Of a DNA stretch of 64,000 nt, positions 13,622 to 56,857 are shown piece by piece (position 1 is the stretch's first letter; each line of letters begins with the position of its first letter). The DNA comes from Tetrahymena thermophila SB210 (taxonomy: Eukaryota > Ciliophora > Oligohymenophorea > Hymenostomatida > Tetrahymenidae), in NCBI RefSeq assembly GCF_000189635.1, contig NW_002476365.1, positions 310,001 through 374,000 on the forward strand. Direction: 5' to 3'. The notes beneath the pieces were generated by a model. That model ran no database searches. It had not been told where the DNA came from and saw only the letters and a program-made list of their open reading frames with translations. A program made the position numbers and the translations under genes.

Positions 13622-13982
13622 ATAATTAGTAAGTGCTATTAACATAATGTTACTGACTTAAAAGATAAAATAAGAAGATTCGTTTATTAGTCTTTGAATA
13701 ATTACAGAAGGTATAATACTACTGATTGAAAAAAATAAATTAAAGATTTAATATTACAAACATTATAAATTATATTCAAGCCAGAATTAATAATATTTTG
13801 AATAAATTAAGTAGCTATTAATATGAATTCAGTATGGGTTTGTTTTATCAAATTAATAATCAAAATAAACTTAAATATCTAGCAAACGAGACCTTCAAAA
13901 AAGATATAATACAAATAAAAAATCTAAATTGAAATATTAATAAATAAATCAATCAATCAATCAATAAAAAACAAATTCCGAA

Positions 13983-14687
13983 ATGGGATAATCCAATTCT
14001 AATGAGATTTTAAACAACCACTTTTCTCTTAACTAATAATCTTAATCATCTAATATAATCATGGATTCTGAGTCCTTGATAGAAGAGAGCAGAAAATTGG
14101 TGATTAAAATTAACGAAACCTTTGAAAAAATTTCCTCTTCAAGATAATAAGTATTCCATGCTTTGGGAATTTCTTAGGTTGGTTTCGGCAGGAAGTATAA
14201 ATAACTGTGGTCAATAGATGACGATTTAAGCATTTTTAAATAATAATTGTAAAATTTAGATATTATCGTCCCCTTAGAAAATATATTATCCATAAACTAA
14301 TATTGCTTTGAGCTTTCGATGATTAAAATTGGCATTGTTTCTCAACTTTGCTAAATAAATCGCTTAATGGATTAAATCTAAGCACACTTAAAATAAAATA
14401 AACCAGAAAAAAACAAAAAAATCTAATTAAAAAACTCCATTAAGGTTTTAAATTCAAATATCGTAAGGCTTGAAGAACTTTTATCGAATAGATTTGTTTG
14501 TTAACTTAACAATTAAGATTTCTTAAACTGTGTCCACTCAATCTAGTTCAAAAATTCTTTAAAAAAAATAGACGATAATATCAGTTTGAGAAACCAATCA
14601 CCTTAAACAATCATTGATAACACAGACCTTTCTATTCTCTCAACTAATTAATCTTTTGATGACATTTTCTTGGAATAAATAATATGA
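13983..14687 (+). CDS. Small N-myristoylated-type protein 2 (MGQSNS)
   Basis: Single-exon ORF of 234 codons ending at TGA, starting in an AAATGGG context. It begins MGQSNSNEIL: Gly2 plus Ser6 fits N-myristoylation, and the third residue is Gln encoded by TAA, so the standard code would stop at codon 3. Near residues 40-60 there is IEESRKLVIKINETFEKISS, and the remainder is helical and Leu/Gln-rich without a known domain (IDDDLSIFKQQLQNLDIIVP around 80-100). It shares N-terminus type, strand, lack of introns and size class with the genes at 11129, 16536 and 21158. Function unknown; membrane association is inferred only from the N-terminus. Confidence 0.75.
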
Positions 14688-16535
14688 TTAATTTTTTAAT
14701 CTATCTTTGAAATTCAAGCAAAAAAAACTAAAATTAAAGATTTCCTTAGAGTGTAAATTTTACAAGGAAATTCTTAAAATTGGTACTATCAAAAGATAAA
14801 ATTGTAAATAAATGCTATTCAAGCATGAAATTAAAAGTCGCTAAAAATAATAACTTTTACTTAGTAAGTCAAAAACTTTAACTATTATATTAAAATAAAT
14901 TAATTATAAATAAATACATGTAAATAATAATTACTACTTCATATAAAACACTTTCCTTACTCTGTTTATAATTATATAAATTGCTAAAAAAAATTACTAA
15001 ATTCTTATTTAATACAAATTTTAAATTGAAAATATTAAATCTATTTTTATTACACTATTCAATAACTCACTTCTTATTTTACACTCATTTCATAATAAAA
15101 TTAGAATTTTCCAACTCTCTCTTCAATTAAATAACGATCTATCTTAATTTCTTGAAAAGTCACTCTAAAGGATAATTTACTTGTGAATATCATCTATCTA
15201 TTTACCTGGCTGATTTATTTCACCTTCTAGCCAAAATATCGCTTCATTAAAAAATTAAATAAGTAATTAAATATTCATATTTAATATAAAATTTCAATAA
15301 AGAAAAATAATTGATAAAATTTATAAAAAGATAAATAAAAAAATTATTTCATTTAAAAAAATTAGTCGATTAATGAATGGATAATTAAATTTATTGATAT
15401 TAAAATTTTTATATTTAGAAAAATAAATTTATTCATAAGAAATTAAGTATACCGTGATTATCATTTTTTCCCTATTATTAGAGTATTCTGAATTTGTGTT
15501 ATATTAAAAAAAAATCATTCAATTTATTATTTGCTAATCTATTAGTATCATTTTTTAGACTTAATATTTCAAAAAATCTTAAAATTTAACTCTATTGTTA
15601 TTAATTGCTTTGAGAAACATTAAATCTCCATTTTTTTACAAAAATTAAAAAATATTTTACTAAATTAATAAAAATTAAAAAATATTGAGTCATTAATCAG
15701 CAGCCATAAAAAATAAAATGTAATTTTAATACTTAAAGTAATTTAAAACTGTTGAATTTTAAGCATATATTTTTTTTAAATGTTTAAAAATATTCCATGT
15801 TTAATTATGTCAGCAAAATAGTAATGAATTTTATTTTCCTAAATAAATTGTTTAATATTTTTATTAAAAAGAATTTAATTGATAACCAATAATTTTTAGT
15901 AATTGAAATATTAAATATTAATTTTATAATAATTTATAATAACTAAATTAATAAACATAGGCAAAGTATTGCTTATTCATATTTTATTTTTTTATTAAAG
16001 TATTTATTATCTGTAATTCATAATCAAAATAAGAGATGAAAAAATTAATTGCTTTAAGTTAATTTTTTTTCTAGATTTTTTTTTTTTTGGTAATTATTAA
16101 CTGTGGATTTATTTTTCATAGAAATGAAAGGTGTAAATAATTCATGAAATTCAATTGAAAATAATGCAGAGTAAATTTTCTCAAAAATATTTGTGATGAA
16201 AGAAAGGTTATTAAAACTTAAAACAAACTATAAAAAGAATGAAATTCTTTTTTTAGAGCAGACAGACAGACAGACAAGAGAAAGGCTACATTTAGAAAAA
16301 TAAAAATTAGTGAGATAATATCATTGAATATTTTAAAAACTAATTTATTTAAAAAAATTATAAAATCGCAAGTGATATAGAAAGTCAATTACGTATATAT
16401 AACTCTAAGCATCAGAATAAAGTCTTTGCTTGTCTTTTATCTTTTTTAAGTTTTGAAAAGCTCTAAAAATTCAAAAATAACTTTTTTCAAATTTTGCTAA
16501 AAAAATCTAAATAAATCTAAAATAATTTTACACAA
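14688..16535. other. Intergenic AT-rich with a short GACA repeat
   Basis: No gene recognised. A (GACA) microsatellite of about four to five units lies near 16258-16275. The rest is AT-rich with homopolymer runs. Confidence 0.5.
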
Positions 16536-17294
16536 ATGGGCAACAGCAACGCATCTAATAGCATGAATTCTGCTAGCAGTTGCTCTACTGTTATAATGTC
16601 AAATGGAACTCCAGAAAAAGACTAAAAGGCAACAAAATCTTCTCCAGAAGAACTGATTCAAAGTTCATACTAGATTATTGATTCTGGTAAAAGAATAATC
16701 AAAGAAATCAATGAAGGATAGTACGCTAGCTATAAAATGTTCTAGCAGTAAAATAGAATATCTAAACAGTACAGCATTGCAGAAGACTTTCGTTATTTTG
16801 TTGAATATTTAGAAAAAAGCATAATGCAAAATAATAAAAATATCATCTTTCTCTAACAATCGAAATAAAATTTATAATGCAAGGATGAATAGCTTCTTAA
16901 CATTTATGAGGAGCTAACTTAGAAGCTAGCCTAAGCAGAGAACCTGATCAAATTTGGAAATTAAGTGCGCTCTCATTTAACACTATGTCAAACAGTACTT
17001 CTAAAAAGCTCTTAGCTGATTGAATATATAGAAATACTAGAATCAAGCTAAAAGAAATAAATTAAATAGAAGGGATTGAAAAAGTAGCTCGATTAAGCTC
17101 AATACAATCTGAACGATATCATCATGACACTGGAGCAATACTTGTTACAAAAAATATCATTTAACTCGATTTCTGATGTAGATGGGTATCTAATTAGATT
17201 GATTACAATTTAAACTTAGCTCATAAACTTAATGCAACAATTCTAAGTTGAAGAAAGCGAAGATATCTAAGAAATCCCCTACGAATTAGAGTGA
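16536..17294 (+). CDS. Small N-myristoylated-type protein 3 (MGNSNA)
   Basis: Single-exon ORF of 252 codons to TGA. It starts MGNSNASNSM. Gly2 is present, position 6 is Ala and Ser is at 7, so the myristoylation signal is good but slightly less canonical than in its neighbours. After a Ser/Asn-rich leader of about 35 residues comes a long helical, coiled-coil-like region (DSGKRIIKEINEGQYASYKM near 48-67, then KDEQLLNIYEELTQKLAQAE). The C-terminus is acidic (VEESEDIQEIPYELE). No catalytic motif is visible. It is the third member of the four-gene run and the longest. A lipid-anchored coiled-coil protein is the best description; the function is unknown. Confidence 0.75.
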
Positions 17295-20200: not shown

Positions 20201-21157
20201 ATTTTTTTCAATAACATGCAAATTTTTTTTACTGAGCAAAAGAGTATTTTGATATTTGGTAATATAAGTGCACTGATTTTTTTTACTTTTGGTAATAGTT
20301 ATCTTAGTATGCAGGTTACATATAACATGTTAAGGTATAAATGAAATTATTATAATAAATTCTAGCTAGAATAATTAATTAGCAAATAACTGCATCAAGT
20401 GTAAAATATTGATCGACCTTAAATTTTTCATGGATCTTTATTTATTTATTTATAATTTGTTTTTGTTAGATTTTTAGTTTTAGCGAATCAATTTTATGTC
20501 TAATCACTTTTTTATTTTAAAGATATCTAACTGAGGCAAATATTTTTATACTTCTTGATTGAATATTAAACAAACAAGAAATGTTCCTACCATCGATTTA
20601 ATCTCGTCTACCATGCTTGTGTAGTCCAATTTTTTCAGTAGCATTTTTACATAAATATTTATAAATATATAAGTACATCTTATTTATTCTTTTATCTGTT
20701 TTAGGTGACGAAAGCTGATTATAGTAATAGGATATTACATTGAAATTAACAAGAAAAAATCTGTGATGCAAAACAAAAATAGATAGCTCGATTGAAATCA
20801 AAAAAAAGAAAAAGAAATCATTGCTAATTTAAACTCAAATGCTTATTTCCCACTAAAAAAAGAAATAAGTAAAAACAAACTAAGACTGAAACGATCAATG
20901 TTAAATTAAATTTATTTAAAAGGGAAAAAGTTAATCTTTAAATTAATTATAAAAAATTAAAACCAAAAACAATTAATTAAAAAGAAATCAAACAAACCTT
21001 AACTAAAAGCAAATAATTAGATTAACATACCAAATCTAATCTTAAGTACTTATTATTCATTACCGAATAAGAAAATCCCTTCTATCTAAATTAAAAAAAG
21101 CAAGATAAGAAAGAAACAAACAAATAATTAACAAAAATATCAAACAAACAAACAAAA
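17295..21157. other. Long AT-rich stretch with small hairpins, no gene
   Basis: No gene recognised in 3.9 kb. Visible structure: an (AAAC) microsatellite at about 17497-17519; an 11-bp inverted repeat (17651-17661 with 17733-17743); and a perfect 8-bp hairpin (17769-17776 with 17781-17788, loop TTGT), 2-7 hundred bases after the MGNSNA stop. Isolated open frames occur, for example on the minus strand near 20018-20239, but they read as low-complexity sequence. Confidence 0.5.
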
Positions 21158-21598
21158 ATGGGTTGCATCGCTAGTCAATAAAAGAATGTCTCTCAAGTAA
21201 AAACAGTTAAATCTTAGGCTTAATTAGAATATGAATTGAATAATTGCTACGACCACTTCAATACCATTTCAATCACACTTCAAAAGAGCCAAAAATATAT
21301 TTTCAAGAGTGTAGGAAAGGAACTAAACTCTAAAGAATACTACTTAATATACTAAAAGCTCGAAAACTAGCCTAATTAAGAGAAAACTATCGAATCCTTT
21401 GATATATTTTTCAGAGCGGTTGAATAAGGTCTCTAACTTCTCCCTATGCTTTTAAAATAGAGCCAAAAGCTTGAAGCTAGTCTTTCAGACAGAAAAAATG
21501 AAATCTCAGAATTCAAGCAATCTCTTATTACACACATTGAATTCTGCAAAAATATTGTACTCCCTTCTCACATGAATTCCTAAAGCACTGAACATTGA
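21158..21598 (+). CDS. Small N-myristoylated-type protein 4 (MGCIAS)
   Basis: Single-exon ORF of 146 codons to TGA. It begins MGCIASQQKN. Gly2 and Ser6 fit myristoylation, and Cys3 is ideally placed for palmitoylation, so dual acylation and stable plasma-membrane or endomembrane attachment are likely. The rest is helical (LEYELNNCYDHFNTISITLQ near 23-42, and a Leu/Lys-rich segment near 100-130) with no known domain. It is the shortest of the four genes and lies 3.9 kb from the third. There are no introns, and several Gln are TAA/TAG. It could be an unrelated acylated protein that happens to lie near the others. Confidence 0.75.
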
Positions 21599-25890: not shown

Positions 25891-25907
25891 AAACCCATAA
25901 TTTTTTA
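25891..25907 (+). promoter_or_regulatory. PSE-like element of U4 copy 1
   Basis: AAACCCATAATTTTTTA. The CCCATA core starts 64 bases before the RNA 5' end. The same core occurs at matching distance before the three other U4 copies, while the surrounding sequence differs. This fits the proximal element of snRNA genes. Confidence 0.7.
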
Positions 25908-25957
25908 TTTTATAATTTACTATTTATTTGGCTGCTCTTTGCAACAAGAATTTCTTT

Positions 25958-26096
25958 AACCTCGCGACAGGGGCAATATAGCAGCAAGTGACGGTTAACT
26001 GATGCGCTATTATTGCTAGTTGAAAACTACTTCAATAAGTGGAAACGACGCTTGCGTCGGGTCCCAATTTCTGGAAGGTCGTATGACCTACTCACT
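25958..26096 (+). ncRNA. U4: U4 spliceosomal snRNA, copy 1 (class A)
   Basis: U4 snRNA pairs with U6 in the tri-snRNP. The 5' region (CTCGCGACAGGGGCAATATA) matches the U6-pairing stem II part of U4. The 5' stem-loop keeps the K-turn bases (GTGA opposite CTGATG), the site of the 15.5K/Snu13 protein. CTATTATTGCTAGTTGAAAA is the nearly invariant stem I block. A central hairpin CGACGC-TT-GCGTCG (26046-26059) is perfect. The Sm site AATTTCTGG is at 26066-26074, followed by the 3' hairpin GGTC-GTAT-GACC. Length is about 139 nt, and the ends are estimated to a few bases. This copy differs markedly from the other three in the central domain. Confidence 0.92.
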
Positions 26097-26525
26097 CCCT
26101 ATATTAATCAAACAAAACTAAGTTCTTTTCTTCTTAATTCCTTCATATTTATGATCTTATTTTCAATTAAATCAAGTTATTATTAACTCTAAAATGAATA
26201 AATTTAAATGTAATATGTAATTTAAAAACAAAATTTATGTAAAAAAAAAAAAAGAAATTAGCATAACTAACTAAAATGCTTTTTAAAATGATGTTTTATA
26301 AGTAATATCATAAAAAACTAGCATTCAGATTATGTTATTTCTTTTTATAAAAAAGAAACTCTGCAAATATTAAAGAAAAATAAAATGAAAAAATATATTT
26401 TTAATTGTGCACACATGAGATATATTTTATAAAGGTTTATTATAAAAAAAACTAAACAAAAATAATTATTTTAAAATGTTTAACTGTTTATTTTTTTATT
26501 ATTTTTAATAAAAAGCATCATTCAA

Positions 26526-26951
26526 TCACTCTTCTTTCTGAACATTTTTTTGTAATATCAATTCTTTTATGTGCGACATTGGATATAAGAGCCTCCCAAA
26601 TTTAATTAATCCAAAGAATTAATCCCTAATAGGTAATACAATTCCATGATAGTGTAAATGATCTATTGAAACATGAGGAGGGATATGATAGCCATATTTG
26701 TACTCTTTTCCAGGATGACTTTTTTAGAGAATTTGTTCGCATACTTTGTGAATTTCATCTAAAAGTTAGAGATCATTGCTAGTTAAATAACTAGAGTTTT
26801 CTATGTGCTTAATTGGACATACTAAAATGTGCCTCTGCGAAGATGCTAAATCAATATCCTCAATAGCAAATACAATGTCGTTTTAAAAAATGATTAGATT
26901 TTTTTTGTTTTATAAAATATCGCAAAATTCACAAAAATACTGGTTCTTCAT
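26526..26951 (-). CDS. HINT-type histidine-triad (HIT) protein
   Basis: Single-exon ORF of 141 codons. HIT proteins are nucleotide hydrolases or transferases acting on AMP-linked substrates. The N-terminus FCEFCDIL gives the CxxC that often binds zinc in HINT proteins. RHILVCPIKHIENSSYLT near residues 40-57 matches the strand that follows the substrate pocket. The triad motif is near residues 99-112: YHIPPHVSIDHLHYHGIVLP, with HLHYH as the HxHxH catalytic core. The bases GYHIPPHVS before the triad resemble HINT3-type proteins more than HINT1 (which has QSVYHVHLHVL). It lies between U4 copies 1 and 2 but on the opposite strand. Length fits a single HIT domain with a short tail. The likely location is cytosolic or nuclear. 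Confidence 0.88.
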
Positions 26952-27305
26952 GCTTTTCAATTAATTTCAAATATATTTAATACTTAGAAACTAAATGTAA
27001 ATGTAAATATTAAATGTGTTAAAAATTAGTCAAAGATAATAATGTTTTATTCAATAAATTTATTTTTTCATATTCTTAAAAAATATATTTTAAATATTTA
27101 ATATCAAAAATCTCAATTTAGAATAATTTATATTTACCGATTGTAAAACATACATTATTATATTCATTAAGTACAAAAATTTTTGATAGATGCAAGAAAG
27201 AAAGAAAAATTTAAACATTGAAAAGTTTAGTTAAAATCAAATCTATTTCATTAGTATATTTTGAAAATATTTTGTCTATAATTTAAAAATTGTATTATTA
27301 AATTA

Positions 27306-27322
27306 ACTAACCCATATTTTTA
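27306..27322 (+). promoter_or_regulatory. PSE-like element of U4 copy 2
   Basis: CTAACCCATATTTTTAT, with the CCCATA core 62 bases before the RNA start. Same position and core as at the other copies. Confidence 0.7.
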
Positions 27323-27372
27323 TAAACCAAATTAATCTTTATAAATTGAAATCTAATCCTTAAGAAATACTT

Positions 27373-27518
27373 ATCCTCGCGCAGAGGGGCATTATAGTAG
27401 CAAGTGAAGTATTAACTGATGCACTATTATTGCTAATTGAGAACTATGTTCGATAAATTGACTTTAAGTGTAAACTTATTGGCATAATTTCTGAAGGGTC
27501 TTATGGACTCCACTCACT
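27373..27518 (+). ncRNA. U4: U4 spliceosomal snRNA, copy 2 (class B)
   Basis: About 146 nt. It starts ATCCTCGCGCAGAGGGGCAT and keeps the K-turn (GTGA and CTGATG), the stem I block CTATTATTGCTAATTGAGAA, a central hairpin AAGT-GTAA-ACTT, the Sm site AATTTCTGA (27486-27494) and a 3' hairpin GGGTC-TTATG-GACTC. The central domain differs from copy 1 in sequence but not in fold. Copy 3 is almost identical, including some 50 bases downstream (ACAAAACAAAAGC...), which may carry the 3'-end signal. It appears functional. Confidence 0.9.
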
Positions 27519-28165
27519 TCACTTAAATTAACAAAACAAAAGCATCTTTTTTATTCTTTTTAATATATTTTTATTTAAATAATTTAAACATTTTATAAAT
27601 AAATAGAAAATAAGTGAAAATGAAATTCATATTAAAAATAAATATTTTTTATAAAATTTCAAATATTAATTTGCTTATTTTTCAAGTTTGAATTTATTTA
27701 TAAAATCAAAAGTTAATATCTAATATAATATTCTTATTTTATACTGCATTACAAGGTAATAATATGTATAAAATTTAAAGTAATTGTAAGATTATTTGTA
27801 GTAAAATTTATTACTATTTAATTCATCCCTTAATTTAAATAAATTAATTAAAAATAAAATAATTAATTATTATTTTTTAGTTTTAAATATGTACAATTAA
27901 AATATTTAACCAATAATTTACTTTTAGACTTATTTTATTTAAATATTTTTAAAAAAATTATAATTATATAAAAAAGCTGATTTATTTTATCATTATTATT
28001 CAATGTTTTGAGAATAAAAAATATATAAATTAATATAAAATAGATGCATTTTTTATAAAATTTTTGAAGTGAATTTTGTTGGTATTTTTAAATTATTTTT
28101 CCAAATCTATTTCTATCAAATTTAAAAGCATTTTGTCTATAATTTGATGTTAAATAATTAAAAAT

Positions 28166-28185
28166 AGCTAACCCATAATTTTTAA
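28166..28185 (+). promoter_or_regulatory. PSE-like element of U4 copy 3
   Basis: AGCTAACCCATAATTTTTAA, with the CCCATA core 62 bases before the RNA start. Confidence 0.7.
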
Positions 28186-28233
28186 GGTCAAATTAACTTT
28201 TATAAATTGAAATCTAATCCTTAATAAATACTT

Positions 28234-28379
28234 ATCCTCGCGCAGAGGGGCATTATAGAAGCAAGTGAAGTATTAACTGATGCTCTATTATTGCTAATTG
28301 AGAACTATGTTCGATAAATTGACTTTAAGTGTAAACTTATTGGCATAATTTCTGAAGGGTCTTATGGACTCCACTCACT
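28234..28379 (+). ncRNA. U4: U4 spliceosomal snRNA, copy 3 (class B)
   Basis: Nearly identical to copy 2. The visible differences are single bases in the 5' stem-loop, such as ATAGAAGC for ATAGTAGC and GATGCTC for GATGCAC. The second change weakens one pair at the base of the loop. The K-turn, stem I block, central hairpin, Sm site (28347-28355) and 3' hairpin are all kept. About 90 upstream and 50 downstream bases are also shared with copy 2, which shows a recent duplication with a unit of about 860 bases. Confidence 0.9.
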
Positions 28380-28855
28380 TCACTTAAACTAACAAAACAA
28401 AAGCATATTTTTTATTCTTTTCAATATATTATTATACAAAATAAATAAGCAATAATTAAATCAAAAACATTTTCATTTCGACTTAAAATAAATTAAAAAA
28501 GGAATTCATATGAAAATTTTAAAAAGATTAACTAAAGTTTCAATTGATTTTATAAATTAAACTAAATTATTTATTTACAAATTATATATTAGGTTTAAAA
28601 ATAAACATGATTTAAATAAATATAACAAAGAATTAGTTGGTTTTTAAATTATTTATTATTTTTGAGAAAAGTATTTATTTTTAGATTTATTTAATTGTGT
28701 AAAAAAATTAATATAATTGCATCTATTAACAATTAAGAATAAAAATATTTGATAGATGCAATTTATAAAATTTTTGATCAGGATGATAAGCAATTAAATT
28801 AATTGTCCAAATCTGTTTTTATGAACTCGAAAAATATTTTGTAATAATTAAAGTT

Positions 28856-28872
28856 AGCTAACCCATATTATT
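28856..28872 (+). promoter_or_regulatory. PSE-like element of U4 copy 4
   Basis: AGCTAACCCATATTATT, with the CCCATA core 59 bases before the RNA start. Confidence 0.68.
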
Positions 28873-28920
28873 TAAATCAAATAAACTTTTAAATTTATAT
28901 ATAATCCTCCTCTAATTAGT

Positions 28921-29066
28921 ATCCTCGCGCAGAGGGGCATTATGGAAGCATGTGAAGTATTAACTGATGCACTATTATTGCTAATTGAGAACTATGTTCG
29001 ATAAATTGGTATTGAGTTTAAACTTATTACCATCATTTCTGAAGAGTCTTATGGACTCCACTCACC
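28921..29066 (+). ncRNA. U4: U4 spliceosomal snRNA, copy 4 (class B, diverged)
   Basis: The 5' half, K-turn and stem I block match copies 2 and 3. The central domain has drifted (GGTATTGAGTTTAAACTTATTA). The Sm site reads CATTTCTGA (29034-29042) instead of AATTTCTGA. The 3' hairpin GAGTC-TTATG-GACTC is a perfect stem. The downstream shared block is partly lost. It may still be expressed; the altered Sm site makes assembly less certain than for copies 1-3. Confidence 0.85.
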
Positions 29067-29454
29067 CAACAAAAACATTTTTTTCATGTTTTTAATTTAA
29101 AAAAGTAAAAATATTATATAAATATAATTTACAATTAATGCAAGCTACATATATTTTAATTAATTGTGACAAAAATAGACAAAAATAAATTTAAGAATTA
29201 AATTTCTTTAAAATTTTAAAAAAATCAGTGCTCATAATTTTATTTAAATATATTTTGATAAAGAAAACTTTTAATAAATTTTTATAAAATTCTTATTTTT
29301 ATTTTTAAAGTTTTAATTTTTAATATAAAATCTACTTGAACAAAAAAATAAAAATTTTGCCTGTTATTTAAAATTATAATTAAAAAGTCTCAACAATTAT
29401 TTTAATAAAGCTAATTAAATTTTATAAATAAAAATCTAATTCTTTAAAAAACTT

Positions 29455-29606
29455 GTATTCATACTTAAAGGTGCATAAAAGAAGCATGTTCATTTTTAAT
29501 TAAAGCTTTGTTATTTCAAATTGAGAACAATGTTTGATATATTGACTTTAAATTTATGCTTATTGTCACAATTTCTGATGATTATTATGGACTCCATTTA
29601 CTTCAC
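29455..29606 (+). pseudogene. U4: U4 snRNA pseudogene, copy 5
   Basis: Recognisable by collinear remnants of class B U4: GTGCATAAAAGAAGCATGTT, TTGAGAACAATGTTTGATAT, ATTGACTTTAAATTTATGCT, the Sm-like CAATTTCTGA and TTATGGACTCCATTTACTTC. The CTCGCGCAGAGG 5' end is gone, the K-turn bases are lost (GTTC for GTGA, TTAAAG for CTGATG), and stem I reads TTATTTCAAATTGAG. The upstream CCCATA element has decayed to CTAATTAAATTTT. It is a decayed fifth repeat of the array and probably not transcribed. Confidence 0.78.
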
Positions 29607-30028: not shown

Positions 30029-30451
30029 ATGCTGAAGAATATTTTCAACAAGTTCAAACAAATAAGGTAAGCCCATAATGATGCAAAATTTAATAGAAAA
30101 TTAGTGGGTACAGATAGAAGCGGAAATAAGTACTACCAATACTTTGATGAAGAAGGGTATGAAACTAAAAGAGAATGTGAATATTTAAATGTTTTTGATC
30201 AGAATCATGTGAATAGAATAGATCCAGCTTGGGAAGATTGGTTGAGAAAGAAAAGATTAGATCCTTTTACTGAAGAAGAAATGGAAAAAATTTATAGATA
30301 CACTGATAATCTAAGAAAAAAAGGTATTTCAGCTGATAAATATGAATAAGAAATGATGAAAACTTTTCGTAGAACTGATAAATATAATGCTGCAGAAAAA
30401 AAAGACTTCCAACCTGAACACTGGGATTTTGATTAGAAAAACAATAAATGA
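30029..30451 (+). CDS. NDUFA12/NDUFAF2-family complex I protein
   Basis: Single-exon ORF of 140 codons to TGA. It belongs to the 17.2-kDa family, which includes complex I subunit NDUFA12 and assembly factor NDUFAF2. The diagnostic segment begins near residue 26 with VGTDRSGNKYYQYFDEEGYE. It continues through a Lys/Arg-rich stretch to IDPAWEDWLRKKRLDPFTEEE near residues 58-78, matching the PPEWxxWLRxxRxxPPT signature. The start Met opens a basic, amphipathic leader (MLKNIFNKFKQIRQAHNDAK) that fits mitochondrial import. The TAG at codon 14 is Gln, so a standard-code reader would start later. The C-terminal half is charged and low in complexity. Which of the two paralogues it represents cannot be settled from sequence alone; the single domain and acidic tail fit either. 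Confidence 0.85.
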
Positions 30452-53397: not shown

Positions 53398-56286
53398 TCA
53401 CATGTCTTCTTGTGCTATGAGACTATCAGATTTATAATATTCTTCGTTTTGCACATTTTCATTATCTTCGCTTTATTCAATGTTATTATTATCTAAATTA
53501 AAATTTGCATTTGAAGTTTCTTCAGATACGTTTTTCTATTCTGCGATGTCAGACTAAGATTTGAACTGAGCTTCATTTTTGAAGCAATCTATTGTATCGC
53601 TCACTTTTTGGTTAGCTATTTAGCCTTAAAATATTCCGCCTAAGTTAACTTCTTCGTTTCCTAGATTAACTGTTTGATCTTTCATTATATTACTGTTTCC
53701 TCGTGATCTCTCTTAGTTTGTTTTCTTTTTTTCCCTTTGAGCGCTACTGCTACTTTTTTCTTCTTTGTGATATTTAGTAGTGTTGATTTTAAACTCTTCA
53801 TGACCTTATTAGGTTGGAATTTAGTATTATTCTCTTTATATAAACGAGTTGATATTGTAAAATAAAGGAAGAAGAATTTAGTTGAAGTATAATTTGCATT
53901 GTTTTTAGCAAAAAGGCTATTAATGTGATTATTTTTTGTTAACTTAGCTATGTTTAGAACCAGTATTATGACTAACGCTTTTAGATCCGTTTGTGCTGTC
54001 GCCTCCTTCACTACTTTTAGTCTCTCTTTCAGACATTACATCATTAGAACTGCTATTCTATTTCATGGAACTATCATTAACAGAACTAGCATTAGTAGTG
54101 TTATTAATCGAGCTATTATCAGGACTACTTGAATTGCTTTATTAAATGTTTGCCATTTTCATATAGAGGTTAAATAGCTCTTCTAATTAGTTTTTATTTG
54201 GGATATAATGCTAAGTCTTCGATTGTTTGAAAACTTTCTTAGTTTCCTTATTTTGAACATTATATACACTTTATGAAGAAGGAGTTGTCTATAATTTTTA
54301 TATATTATTTACAATTTCTTTCTCTTGTGAAGAGCTAGAGTGGTTTAAGATGTTATAAGGAGATTGTATTTGTTGTGAATCTGATGATGATGAACTATTC
54401 TACTAATCGAATTCATTATTGCTTGAGCTATTAGCACTGTTTTATTTACCCTTTTAGTGATGGTAGCTATTTGAAGATGAAGAAGGAGTTTGCTAATTTT
54501 ATTATTTTAGTAATTCAGCATTCTTCTTTAACTCTTAGATATATGATTGTTATAGTTAAAGGATCTACTATTACTATAACATAAAACAATAGAATGGGTT
54601 AAAGTAAGGTTAATCACTTCTTTGATTTTAATCAACCTAGTTCATATTATTATTATTTTAATTGCTGTTATAGCTGAACATTTCCATCATGTATTAATTC
54701 ATATTTTAATTTTTTATCATCAATTCATCGCTACCGTTATTATAATTTGTTTAAAACTAAGTTTATTGTTACTATTATTGTTATTGTTATTGTTACTGTT
54801 ACTGTTACTGTTATTGCTATTACTATTACTATTACTATTACTATTATTATTACTATTATTGTTGTTGTTGTTGTTGCTATTGTTATTATTATTACTATTA
54901 TTGTTGTTTCTATTAATGTTGATAAATACTTTATTGATCATCGATCACACTATTTTAAATAGAGGACTAAAAATTTGGTGAACCTTGTTGAGATAATTTT
55001 TGTTATTGATTTGATTGTTTTTAATAATTAGTTGAAGATTTCAAGCTTTGGAATGTTGGAAAAGATTATGCTTATGGACTATAAACTCCTCCTAACTCGC
55101 TTAGACTAGAAGGTTAATTAGATTGATTAAGATTGCTTTAATATCTATTTGTCCTCTCAAATTATTAATTGGTATTTTTGTTATTTGATTATTATTAACT
55201 AGAGTGTTATTAGGATAAATTTTATATAGAGTGATTAGCACTGTTTCCGAGGGATGAGTGGTCACTCATTTTTGAAGATTTTTAGTTAAATGAAAATTAT
55301 TAGACATCATCTGCATGAGCAGCATTAAAGTTGTCTGGAGAACCCATGCTTTCATCAAGAACAGAATTTTATAATCTCGATTTTTTAATTACTTGAGCTT
55401 GACTTTATATTTGGGCAACAATCTAAGGCTAATTATGTTGATATAAAGAATCTTATAAATTGATTGCTGGAATTTATGAGATTGTTGAGCTTATTTAGGT
55501 TTGTTGCAATTAAGGTATTTATTATTGAAGATAAAATGATTAATTGATTGTCTAGTTTGTATTAAATTTTAAATTTTATTTATCTACTACTTATAATAAT
55601 GCTTGATTTTAAACTGCATTAGATTTTTCTTTACTATCCTGTTTTTGCTTCTTTGAAAGCCTTGGTGATTCTCCATCATCTTATTTAGATTTTTCCTGCT
55701 AATTGTTCATTGAATTTATCATTTTTTCTCCATTTTGGCTATTATAATCTCTATCATTGCTTTGATTTTAGCTCCTTTACTATTTTTCTTTGCTTTAATT
55801 AGAGTTTCTTCTAGCGTGATATACAGGACATTTGTGAAGCTTTTTTCTTTTGTCTTAGTTAAAGACATTCAGTTCAAATATGCTTCTTATGCTATTGATA
55901 GATGTTTCTTAGTTAATTTTGAAGAAATCTATATCCTTTTCATTACTTGAATTATATCCTTTTTTTGCACTGTCCCTATCGAATCTAAATTGTCTTTCAA
56001 ATTAATCATTTTTCTGCAATTGTTTTTAAATCGGTTTTTATATAATCATTAAGTCTTCACTCTATTTGCTTTCCTTTTGAGAGAATACAGATCTTTCAAA
56101 TGTCCTATTTACCTCACTTCCTAATTAATTGATACCGCTGCTTGTTTAGTATTCATCATTATTTAAATTGATGTGCTCAACATCCTGCTCGCTTTCTTCA
56201 ATTAATTCTTGTTCTTGTTCTATGGCTTCATTTCCAAGTAGATTTTATCCAATCTAAATTTTATCTTCTTCATTAGAAAAATTCAT
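53398..56286 (-). CDS. Gln/Asn/Ser-rich protein with Q48 tract, 962 aa
   Basis: Single-exon ORF of 962 codons on the minus strand from Met (MNFSNEEDK) to TGA, so coding is certain; the product is not recognised. The N-terminal third is acidic. A basic stretch near residues 145-165 (KRKKLHKCPVYHARRNSN) and a second near 840-862 (REKKKTNQERSRG) could be nuclear localisation or DNA contacts. Between them lie Gln/Asn/Ser runs and an unbroken run of 48 Gln at 54906-54763 (about residues 461-508), written with TAA, TAG, CAA and CAG mixed. The remaining sequence is Ser/Asn-rich up to a short acidic C-terminus. The composition is typical of ciliate regulatory or transcription-related proteins; that role is inferred. 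In frame upstream lies ATG at 56373 separated from this start by one TGA (56352-56350), with good-looking protein in between. Confidence 0.82.
54763..54906 (-). repeat. Trinucleotide repeat encoding Q48
   Basis: 48 consecutive TAA/TAG/CAA/CAG codons on the minus strand. Because four codons alternate, the DNA is not a pure CAG repeat. That should limit slippage compared with a pure tract of the same length. Confidence 0.9.
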
Positions 56287-56857
56287 GTAGATTTTCTAGC
56301 TTGCCAAATGTGTATAAGATTTTTTATAAATTTCTTTTAGTTCATCCTATCATATTTCCATAAAAATAGACATTTTTTATTGATTTTTGAATGAAATAAC
56401 AGATGAAATTTCTAAATTTTAAATTGCTTGGAAAATGAAAGGAAATCTAAAAATTCAATTAATTAATTTTAAATAATCTAATGTGGCTAAATCAATGGTC
56501 TGCTTGTAAGATATTTGCAATTAGACATGCGAATTAATTTATTAAATTGTAAAGCGTGTTGATCTAATAAAAAGTTAATATAAAAAATGTGTTTACTTAA
56601 TATTTGAGTTCCACAAAGTTGGATGGTATGTCTGCTAAGAGAGTTGGAGAAAAAGAAATTATTGGGCCATGGAGAGGCTTAATATATTTAATAACCTTTT
56701 TTAATAAATTAATATTAATATTTATTTGAATGAGTGAAAGAAAAATAATTATGATGATGCAATTACTTTTTTGACTGTTTGATTTGCTTAAGAAAAAGGA
56801 GAATCTGATTGTATATTTAAGCAAAGGATAATAACTTTATTTGCATATGACTCATGG

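Follow-up and report, generated by a model that had tools for sequence, protein, structure and literature searches.

Putative U4 snRNA genes of two divergent classes, with a probable dead copy, at a Tetrahymena thermophila locus

Orum, Nielsen and Engberg reportedly described the snRNA genes U1 to U6 of Tetrahymena thermophila in the early 1990s, counting for each RNA between two and six copies with slight differences. The U4 locus analyzed here resembles those genes in its low copy number per snRNA and in the conservation of flanking elements. A 2006 genome paper is said to be the work cited for a variant U2. That a variant U2 snRNA of T. thermophila exists is already in print (PMC3341644), offering a parallel in which a single snRNA has a divergent second class as well as its main one, but it concerns U2 rather than U4, and the passage in question contains no mention of U4 or U1 variants. 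Animal genomes, according to an excerpt of PMC4291461, also contain more than one U4 paralog, with isoforms switching in development; the vertebrate U4 RNAs compared in that excerpt show three nucleotide variations, whereas the Tetrahymena classes differ by about 30%. For T. thermophila, TGIRT-seq sets from wild-type cells and from an MLP1 immunoprecipitation are named in PMC12309372. A literature search of titles and the beginnings of abstracts, covering few subscription papers, returned nothing on this U4 locus.

The locus very probably comprises U4 genes on a macronuclear chromosome, with a class A gene followed by a class B group and a dead copy, as judged from sequence; the ends of the contig are G4T2/C4A2 repeats. 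The host is Tetrahymena, very probably T. thermophila. An NDUFA12-like neighbour had only weak PDB matches, and a TERT exon was used instead: it is identical in every letter to PDB chain 2r4g, a T. thermophila entry, and the agreement runs beyond the edge of the exon. The telomerase RNA also reads like that of T. thermophila. We scanned the window (the entire 64,000-nucleotide stretch analyzed) with the Rfam U4 model (RF00015; gathering score, 46 bits), a search that the original prediction had called for, revealing four matches above the cut-off on the + strand (25958-29056; 80.3 to 89.5 bits; E, 1.1e-18 to 3.1e-16), all full-length (model positions 1-138 of 138) and carrying the U6-pairing stem II, Sm-like site and 3′ hairpin of the family and a putative 5′ stem-loop. 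Copy 1 (25958..26089, +; 89.5 bits) has an Rfam span of 25958-26087, with 3′ hairpin pairs extending to 26089; copy 2 (27373..27511, +; 86.3 bits) ends at 27508 by Rfam and at 27511 by model R1, which was built from copies 1-4; and copies 3 (28234..28372, +; 85.9 bits) and 4 (28921..29059, +; 80.3 bits) have Rfam spans to 28369 and of 28921-29056, respectively. A fifth copy (29457..29595, +) gave no Rfam match up to E = 5 but is a real relative, recovered by model R1 (74.8 bits; E, 5.2e-16). The predicted set of four U4 genes and one pseudogene on the same strand was upheld by these matches; its proposed start, 25891, is not RNA and lies one base before the upstream element AACCCATA of copy 1. 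Among the best candidates scored in an Rfam U4 search of the 101-Mb genome, there was no U4 beyond copies 1-4, and a genome DNA search with copy 3 as the query, which is blind to divergence like that of copy 1 or 5, listed only copies 3, 2 and 4.

With 69-71% identity to copies 2-4, copy 1 is clearly of a different U4 class (A) from those copies (B), and its U4 type is older than that of the others. Compared with class A, class B has a rewritten central domain (copies 1 and 2 are the same in 15 of 38 columns), which is its point of difference from the Rfam U4 family. A direct-repeat search placed only copies 2-5 in one family, without copy 1; the array proper is copies 2-5. Between copies 1 and 2 lies a 141-aa open ORF (code 6) on the - strand (26526..26951) with a DcpS_C/HIT domain (Pfam DcpS_C; E, 6.5e-18). 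In the original prediction, all five copies belonged to a single tandem array that decays at its end, four of them being apparently intact; the copies do share a strand and four are full-length Rfam matches, but copy 1 is divergent, outside the repeat family and beyond a protein gene, and the mismatched 5′ stem of copy 4 makes 'four intact copies' generous. That version, if it takes the four copies as equal and intact, is already contradicted in part and, taken whole, is highly improbable. The unit length, also predicted to shrink, does fall in start-to-start steps of 1415, 861 and 687 from copy 1 to copy 4 and of 536 (rather than about 540) from copy 4 to copy 5, but the first step, of 1415 bases, does not represent a repeat unit because it holds the - strand protein gene (26951-26526), and the trend carries little because only three steps are left without copy 1. 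Among 21 pairs of spacer or flank stretches, spacer 2-3 versus spacer 3-4 gave the top score (73; 2 of 100 shuffles), but spacer 4-5 versus the downstream flank also had 2 of 100 and the outer flanks compared with each other had 3 of 100, and we rejected spacer homology as weak proof of recent tandem duplication.

The predicted stem II duplex with the genome's own U6 reached -27.7 kcal/mol for copy 1 and -30.8 for copies 2, 3 and 4 (equalled by none of 500 shuffles for any of the four), and -9.8 for copy 5, matched by 50 of 500 shuffles. Stem I bases are TTGCTA in copies 1-4 and TTTCAA in copy 5; the best predicted stem I duplex with U6 took the expected register in copy 1 only and another register in copies 2-5. 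A K-turn in the 5′ stem-loop, for the 15.5K protein, is a feature of the U4 family. Tandem GA bases are present in copies 1-4, with a poor inner stem in copy 1, whose inner 5′ stem-loop is a poor fit to the K-turn model (non-standard pairs by Rfam; C/U and a gap, columns 36 and 38). The outer 5′ stem is complete in copies 1-3 and weakened in copy 4, where one position is an A.A mismatch and another is G.U. Copies 2 and 3 differ at 2 of 136 bases, which are the two partners of a single 5′ stem pair (U-A and A-U; C-G in copy 1); the chance of such a paired difference is about 0.003 (24 model pairs among 9180 position pairs, by hand arithmetic with retention of pairing not included). Covariation of the 5′ stem among the four sequences was without clear excess over shuffling (73 of 500). 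Columns 26 and 51 of the alignment tell copies 2, 3 and 4 apart, and the central domain distinguishes copy 1. The Sm-like site is AATTTCTG in copies 1-3, retained in copy 5, and CATTTCTG in copy 4, and the predicted energy of the 3′ hairpin that follows lies between -5.4 and -6.4 kcal/mol for copies 1-4 and at -1.1 for copy 5.

Upstream of copies 1-4, 61-66 bases before the RNA, we found the octamer AACCCATA as a PSE-like promoter element on the + strand (25892..25899 for copy 1, at a distance of 66 bases; 27309..27316 for copy 2; 28170..28177 for copy 3; 28860..28867 for copy 4). It occurs 6 times in the window on both strands versus 1.07 expected (0 of 100 shuffles), and its core, CCATA, also lies upstream of all 21 non-U4 snRNA genes found, which carry ACCCATAA at the matching place or, in the four main U2 genes, ACCATAA. 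PSE scores were 12.8 for copy 1 and 3.2, 9.0 and 8.9 for copies 2-4, all lower than in the 21 training genes, which scored 15.2 to 22.2, and were reached by 1, 172, 21 and 26 of 2000 shuffles for copies 1, 2, 3 and 4, respectively; 1397 of 2000 shuffles reached the score of copy 5. With a 3′ box matrix built from 17 other snRNA genes, we identified + strand box-like elements after copy 1 (ATATTAATCAAACAAAA, 26101..26117; 14.9 bits; 0 of 2000 shuffles) and, in variant form, after copies 2 (27525..27541; 11.1 bits; 3 of 2000) and 3 (28386..28402; 11.5 bits; 4 of 2000), while that of copy 4 was weak (5.7 bits; 46 of 2000). Within the U4 group, copy 1 alone has the full TTAATCAAACAAAA run in its 3′ box, and it also has the best PSE score. 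These two distinctions, the variant elements of copies 2-4, and the weak 3′ box and broken 5′ stem pair of copy 4 would suit an arrangement in which copy 1 is the sole functional U4 gene and copies 2-4 are older duplicates in earlier stages of a decay that is finished in copy 5.

The RNA bodies of copies 2-4, however, are far better preserved than their flanks. In tests that treat bases as independent, RNA versus flank identity was 134/136 versus 148/180 for copies 2 and 3 (p 6.7e-7), 124/136 versus 106/158 for copies 2 and 4 (p 4.2e-7) and 124/136 versus 109/158 for copies 3 and 4 (p 2.6e-6). Also against copy 1 as the only working gene are the identical U6 stem II region of copies 2, 3 and 4 (18/18), the preservation of a pair by the only two bases that distinguish copy 2 from copy 3, and a central hairpin that pairs better in copy 4 than in copies 2 and 3, leaving that reading doubtful. 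For copy 5, the corresponding identities were 99/136 versus 122/177 with copy 2 (p 0.53), 101/136 versus 121/177 with copy 3 (p 0.26) and 96/136 versus 91/155 with copy 4; its neutrality is not clean in every comparison because the last gave p 0.038. The RNA is conserved well beyond the flanks in copies 2-4 and, in two of three comparisons, not in copy 5, which has also lost stem II pairing and the promoter element and is probably a dead copy. By itself, the locus offers a neat snRNA gene set in which the dead copy serves as a built-in reference for the features that selection preserves.

Gene conversion, rather than selection on each copy, might instead hold the class B copies alike, in line with the concerted evolution for which the original prediction considered the array a good system. 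Between copies 2 and 3, identity is 99% across the RNA (134/136) and 91% across the next 70 bases, but their upstream identity is 76% in the 110 bases adjoining the gene and 47% at -200 to -80, copy 4 is only 91% identical, and selection explains the paired two-base difference better. We consider conversion across class B unlikely, though less so than a single working copy; it may be limited to the RNA of copies 2 and 3. The spacers have little or no relation and the RNA bodies are conserved, which points to selection on the RNA, and concerted evolution is therefore not favoured.

Grouping had been predicted to set this locus apart from dispersed snRNA genes, but in each of the genome's five snRNA families the matches are grouped (U1 being spread over 45 kb), making the U4 cluster fairly ordinary here. 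U1, U2 and U4 each fall into two classes that are 65-72% identical, and U5 and U6 do not. The divergent U2 comprises five copies on a single contig (69-72% identical to the main U2), which we take to be the variant U2 published in PMC3341644. With U4 joining U1 and U2, two deep classes exist in a single-celled organism with good genetics, and whether snRNA variants do separate jobs could therefore be tested by removing one class. A second, parallel spliceosomal RNA set (variant U1, variant U2 and second U4, 65-72% identical to the main forms and sharing one U5 and one U6), serving distinct introns or a life stage, is an improbable idea; the variant U1 has an altered 5′ end, with which it would favour another 5′ splice site. 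A relaxed search for a second U6 type returned the four U6 genes plus eight matches under the cut-off, the best of the eight at E 0.067, and we rejected such a U6 as the class B partner. We also rejected a U4atac or minor-spliceosome origin of the variants: among the best candidates scored, no U6atac reached the 33-bit cut-off (top score, 24.9 bits; best 46 of 3491 candidates) and no U12 matched at E<=1 (best 42 of 9987 candidates). U4atac presumably belongs to the same Rfam clan as U4; the Rfam scan retains the best family per clan, and U4 was retained at copies 1-4.

The favoured arrangement would be the class A gene (copy 1), then the oppositely oriented HIT/DcpS-type gene, then tandem class B copies 2-4 and dead copy 5. 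The sequence itself shows family identity, a potential for U6 stem II pairing, promoter-like and 3′ elements, constraint on the RNA, and the loss of these in copy 5. Each live U4 gene would be transcribed separately from its PSE-like element, which lies 61 to 66 bases before the RNA like that of the genome's other snRNA genes, with the transcript ending through the downstream 3′ box, and U4 RNA of either class would pair with the genome's single U6 core sequence. Transcription, U4/U6 snRNP assembly and use of both classes are inferred.

Searching the window with the U4 family of Rfam release 15 (curated cut-off, 46 bits) bore out the original prediction of four U4 genes, revealing four full-length matches on the + strand at 80.3-89.5 bits, well over the cut-off: copy 1 at 25958-26087 (89.5 bits), copy 2 at 27373-27508 (86.3 bits), copy 3 at 28234-28369 (85.9 bits) and copy 4 at 28921-29056 (80.3 bits). 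Taken one by one, these copies are ordinary U4 genes. The pseudogene, copy 5, had no Rfam U4 match up to E = 5; a covariance model built from copies 1-4, which themselves fit it by construction, placed copy 5 at 29457-29595 with 74.8 bits (E = 5.2e-16), whereas no other place in 16 kb exceeded 8.8 bits. Across the 101-Mb genome there are at least four U4 loci, copies 1-4, with no other among the best 41 of 9,211 candidates that were scored with the Rfam model, making this count a lower bound.

The predicted U4 cluster is real and mostly as described, but its layout had to be redrawn as a class A gene (copy 1), a protein gene and a class B tandem group (copies 2-4) with a dead end. Copies 2-4 share 91-99% identity with one another but 69-71% with copy 1, and a repeat finder gathered copies 2-5 with their near flanks into one group that left copy 1 outside. 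Copies 1 and 2 are separated by an open ORF of 141 codons, which runs along the - strand from 26951 to 26526 and encodes a DcpS_C/HIT domain. Agreement between the same two copies is also region-wise, with 15/18 columns alike in the U6-pairing 5' end, 31/37 in the 5' stem-loop and 17/19 in the stretch that follows, but merely 15/38 in the central domain. Copy 1 thus forms a class of its own, and copies 2-5 are the tandem group proper.

To ask which copies are alive, we compared identity within the RNA with that in up to 180 flanking bases, treating bases as independent and using copy 5 as an internal yardstick for decay. The RNA was more conserved than the flank for copies 2/3 (134/136 versus 148/180 identical), 2/4 (124/136 versus 106/158) and 3/4 (124/136 versus 109/158; p<1e-5 in each case), and the test is stricter for copies 2-4 since their flanks include promoter and 3' elements. 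Copy 5 showed no clear RNA excess against copies 2 and 3 (p = 0.53 and 0.26) and a slight one against copy 4 (p = 0.038).

When the U4 5' end was paired with U6 of the same genome, copy 1 gave a duplex energy of -27.7 kcal/mol, each of copies 2-4 one of -30.8 (0/500 shuffles as good in every case), and copy 5 one of -9.8 (50/500). The picture for stem I, compared without a shuffle control, was less clear, with the best U6 duplex in the expected register for copy 1 only. Copies 2 and 3 differ at 2 of 136 bases, which stand opposite each other in the 5' stem; this variable pair is C-G in copy 1, U-A in copy 2, A-U in copies 3 and 5, and A.A in copy 4. The corresponding covariation control, on four sequences, was weak (73/500 shuffles as high), while the structure itself paired 96.9% of cells and beat all six slid versions (at most 68.8%). 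The evidence for copy 4 is mixed: its canonical 5' stem is weakened (+0.3 kcal/mol versus -3.2 to -4.8 for copies 1-3) and its 3' box is poor, whereas its central hairpin pairs better than those of copies 2 and 3 and its 3' hairpin is sound.

A PSE-like upstream element was present in all 21 non-U4 snRNA genes found, as ACCCATAA or, in the four main U2 genes, ACCATAA, with the 15-base matrix match beginning 65 to 68 bases upstream. Downstream, 15 of the 17 non-U6 genes carried TAATCAAA in a 3' box close to TAACTAATCAAACAAAA, and the other two (loci L010 and L023) a one-base variant. These genes served as both anchors and training set for the two matrices, so their own scores follow by construction. 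Upstream of U4 copies 1-4, at 61 to 66 bases, is AACCCATA, which matched 6 times on both strands of the window versus 1.07 expected. Out of 2000 shuffled flanks, those scoring as high for the PSE and 3' box, respectively, numbered 1 and 0 for copy 1, 172 and 3 for copy 2, 21 and 4 for copy 3, 26 and 46 for copy 4, and 1397 and 86 for copy 5. Since even copy 1, with a PSE score of 12.8, falls short of the training range (15.2 to 22.2), the elements at the U4 copies are variant forms of the common element.

The U4 cluster had been thought notable on the grounds that snRNA families are often dispersed, a view that does not hold in this genome. Among the best Rfam candidates, we found at least six U1, two U5 and four U6 genes, each family on one contig, and at least nine U2 genes split between two contigs. 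On every contig the set keeps to a single strand; it spans 45 kb for U1 and at most 10 kb for the others. Grouped U4 genes are therefore the rule here rather than the exception. Among the same candidates, three families split into two deep classes: U1 comprises five near-identical genes plus one at 65-66% identity, U2 four plus five at 69-72% and U4 one plus three at 69-71%. There is no such split in U5 (96%) or U6 (92-100%). Judged from sequence, this parallel two-class pattern in U1, U2 and U4 is the part that merits a second look.

The divergent U1 gene (locus L014, 1501-1661; G000:C129:374314-374474), which shares its strand with the ordinary U1 genes, scored 61.1 bits, below the 69.5 cut-off. 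It keeps the PSE and 3' box, although it was itself one of the training genes. Its 3' hairpin is built of other letters (0/300 shuffles as stable), and its 5' end reads AATTACAAT versus ACTTACCTG in U1, a change that by base-pairing would fit a GUAAUU splice site over GUAAGU. The five variant U2 copies (L019-L023; G000:C329:205096-209036), 98-100% identical to one another, share their contig with two main U2 genes. A variant U2 of T. thermophila is in print, and no similar one appears to exist in Ichthyophthirius (PMC3341644); the variant-U2 passages of that paper make no mention of U4 or U1 variants. The four U6 genes (L005-L008; G000:C424) share one core, including L005 despite its different 5' hairpin (GCCCGAAAGGGC).

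The 762-kb contig has G4T2/C4A2 repeats at both ends, the longest code 6 ORFs are rich in TAA/TAG read as Gln (98 in a 1095-aa ORF, 132 in a 969-aa ORF), and an exon of the telomerase reverse transcriptase is identical to PDB chain 2r4g, a T. thermophila protein, across the part beyond the exon edge. These features place the window on a Tetrahymena macronuclear chromosome, very probably of T. thermophila, whose telomerase RNA the one in this genome also resembles. Downstream of the U4 pseudogene and on its + strand, 30029-30451 encodes a 140-aa NDUFA12-family protein, with weak PDB likeness to NDUFA12/assembly factor 2 chains (best, 34.1 bits). Three + strand code 6 ORFs, at 13929-14687 (252 aa), 16494-17294 (266 aa) and 20792-21598 (268 aa), look alike in make-up by eye and have internal Met-Gly starts (MGQSNS, MGNSNA and MGCIAS, respectively); they may form a tandem family of proteins that are lipid-modified at the N terminus. 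The 969-aa ORF, on the - strand at 53398-56307, contains a long glutamine run.
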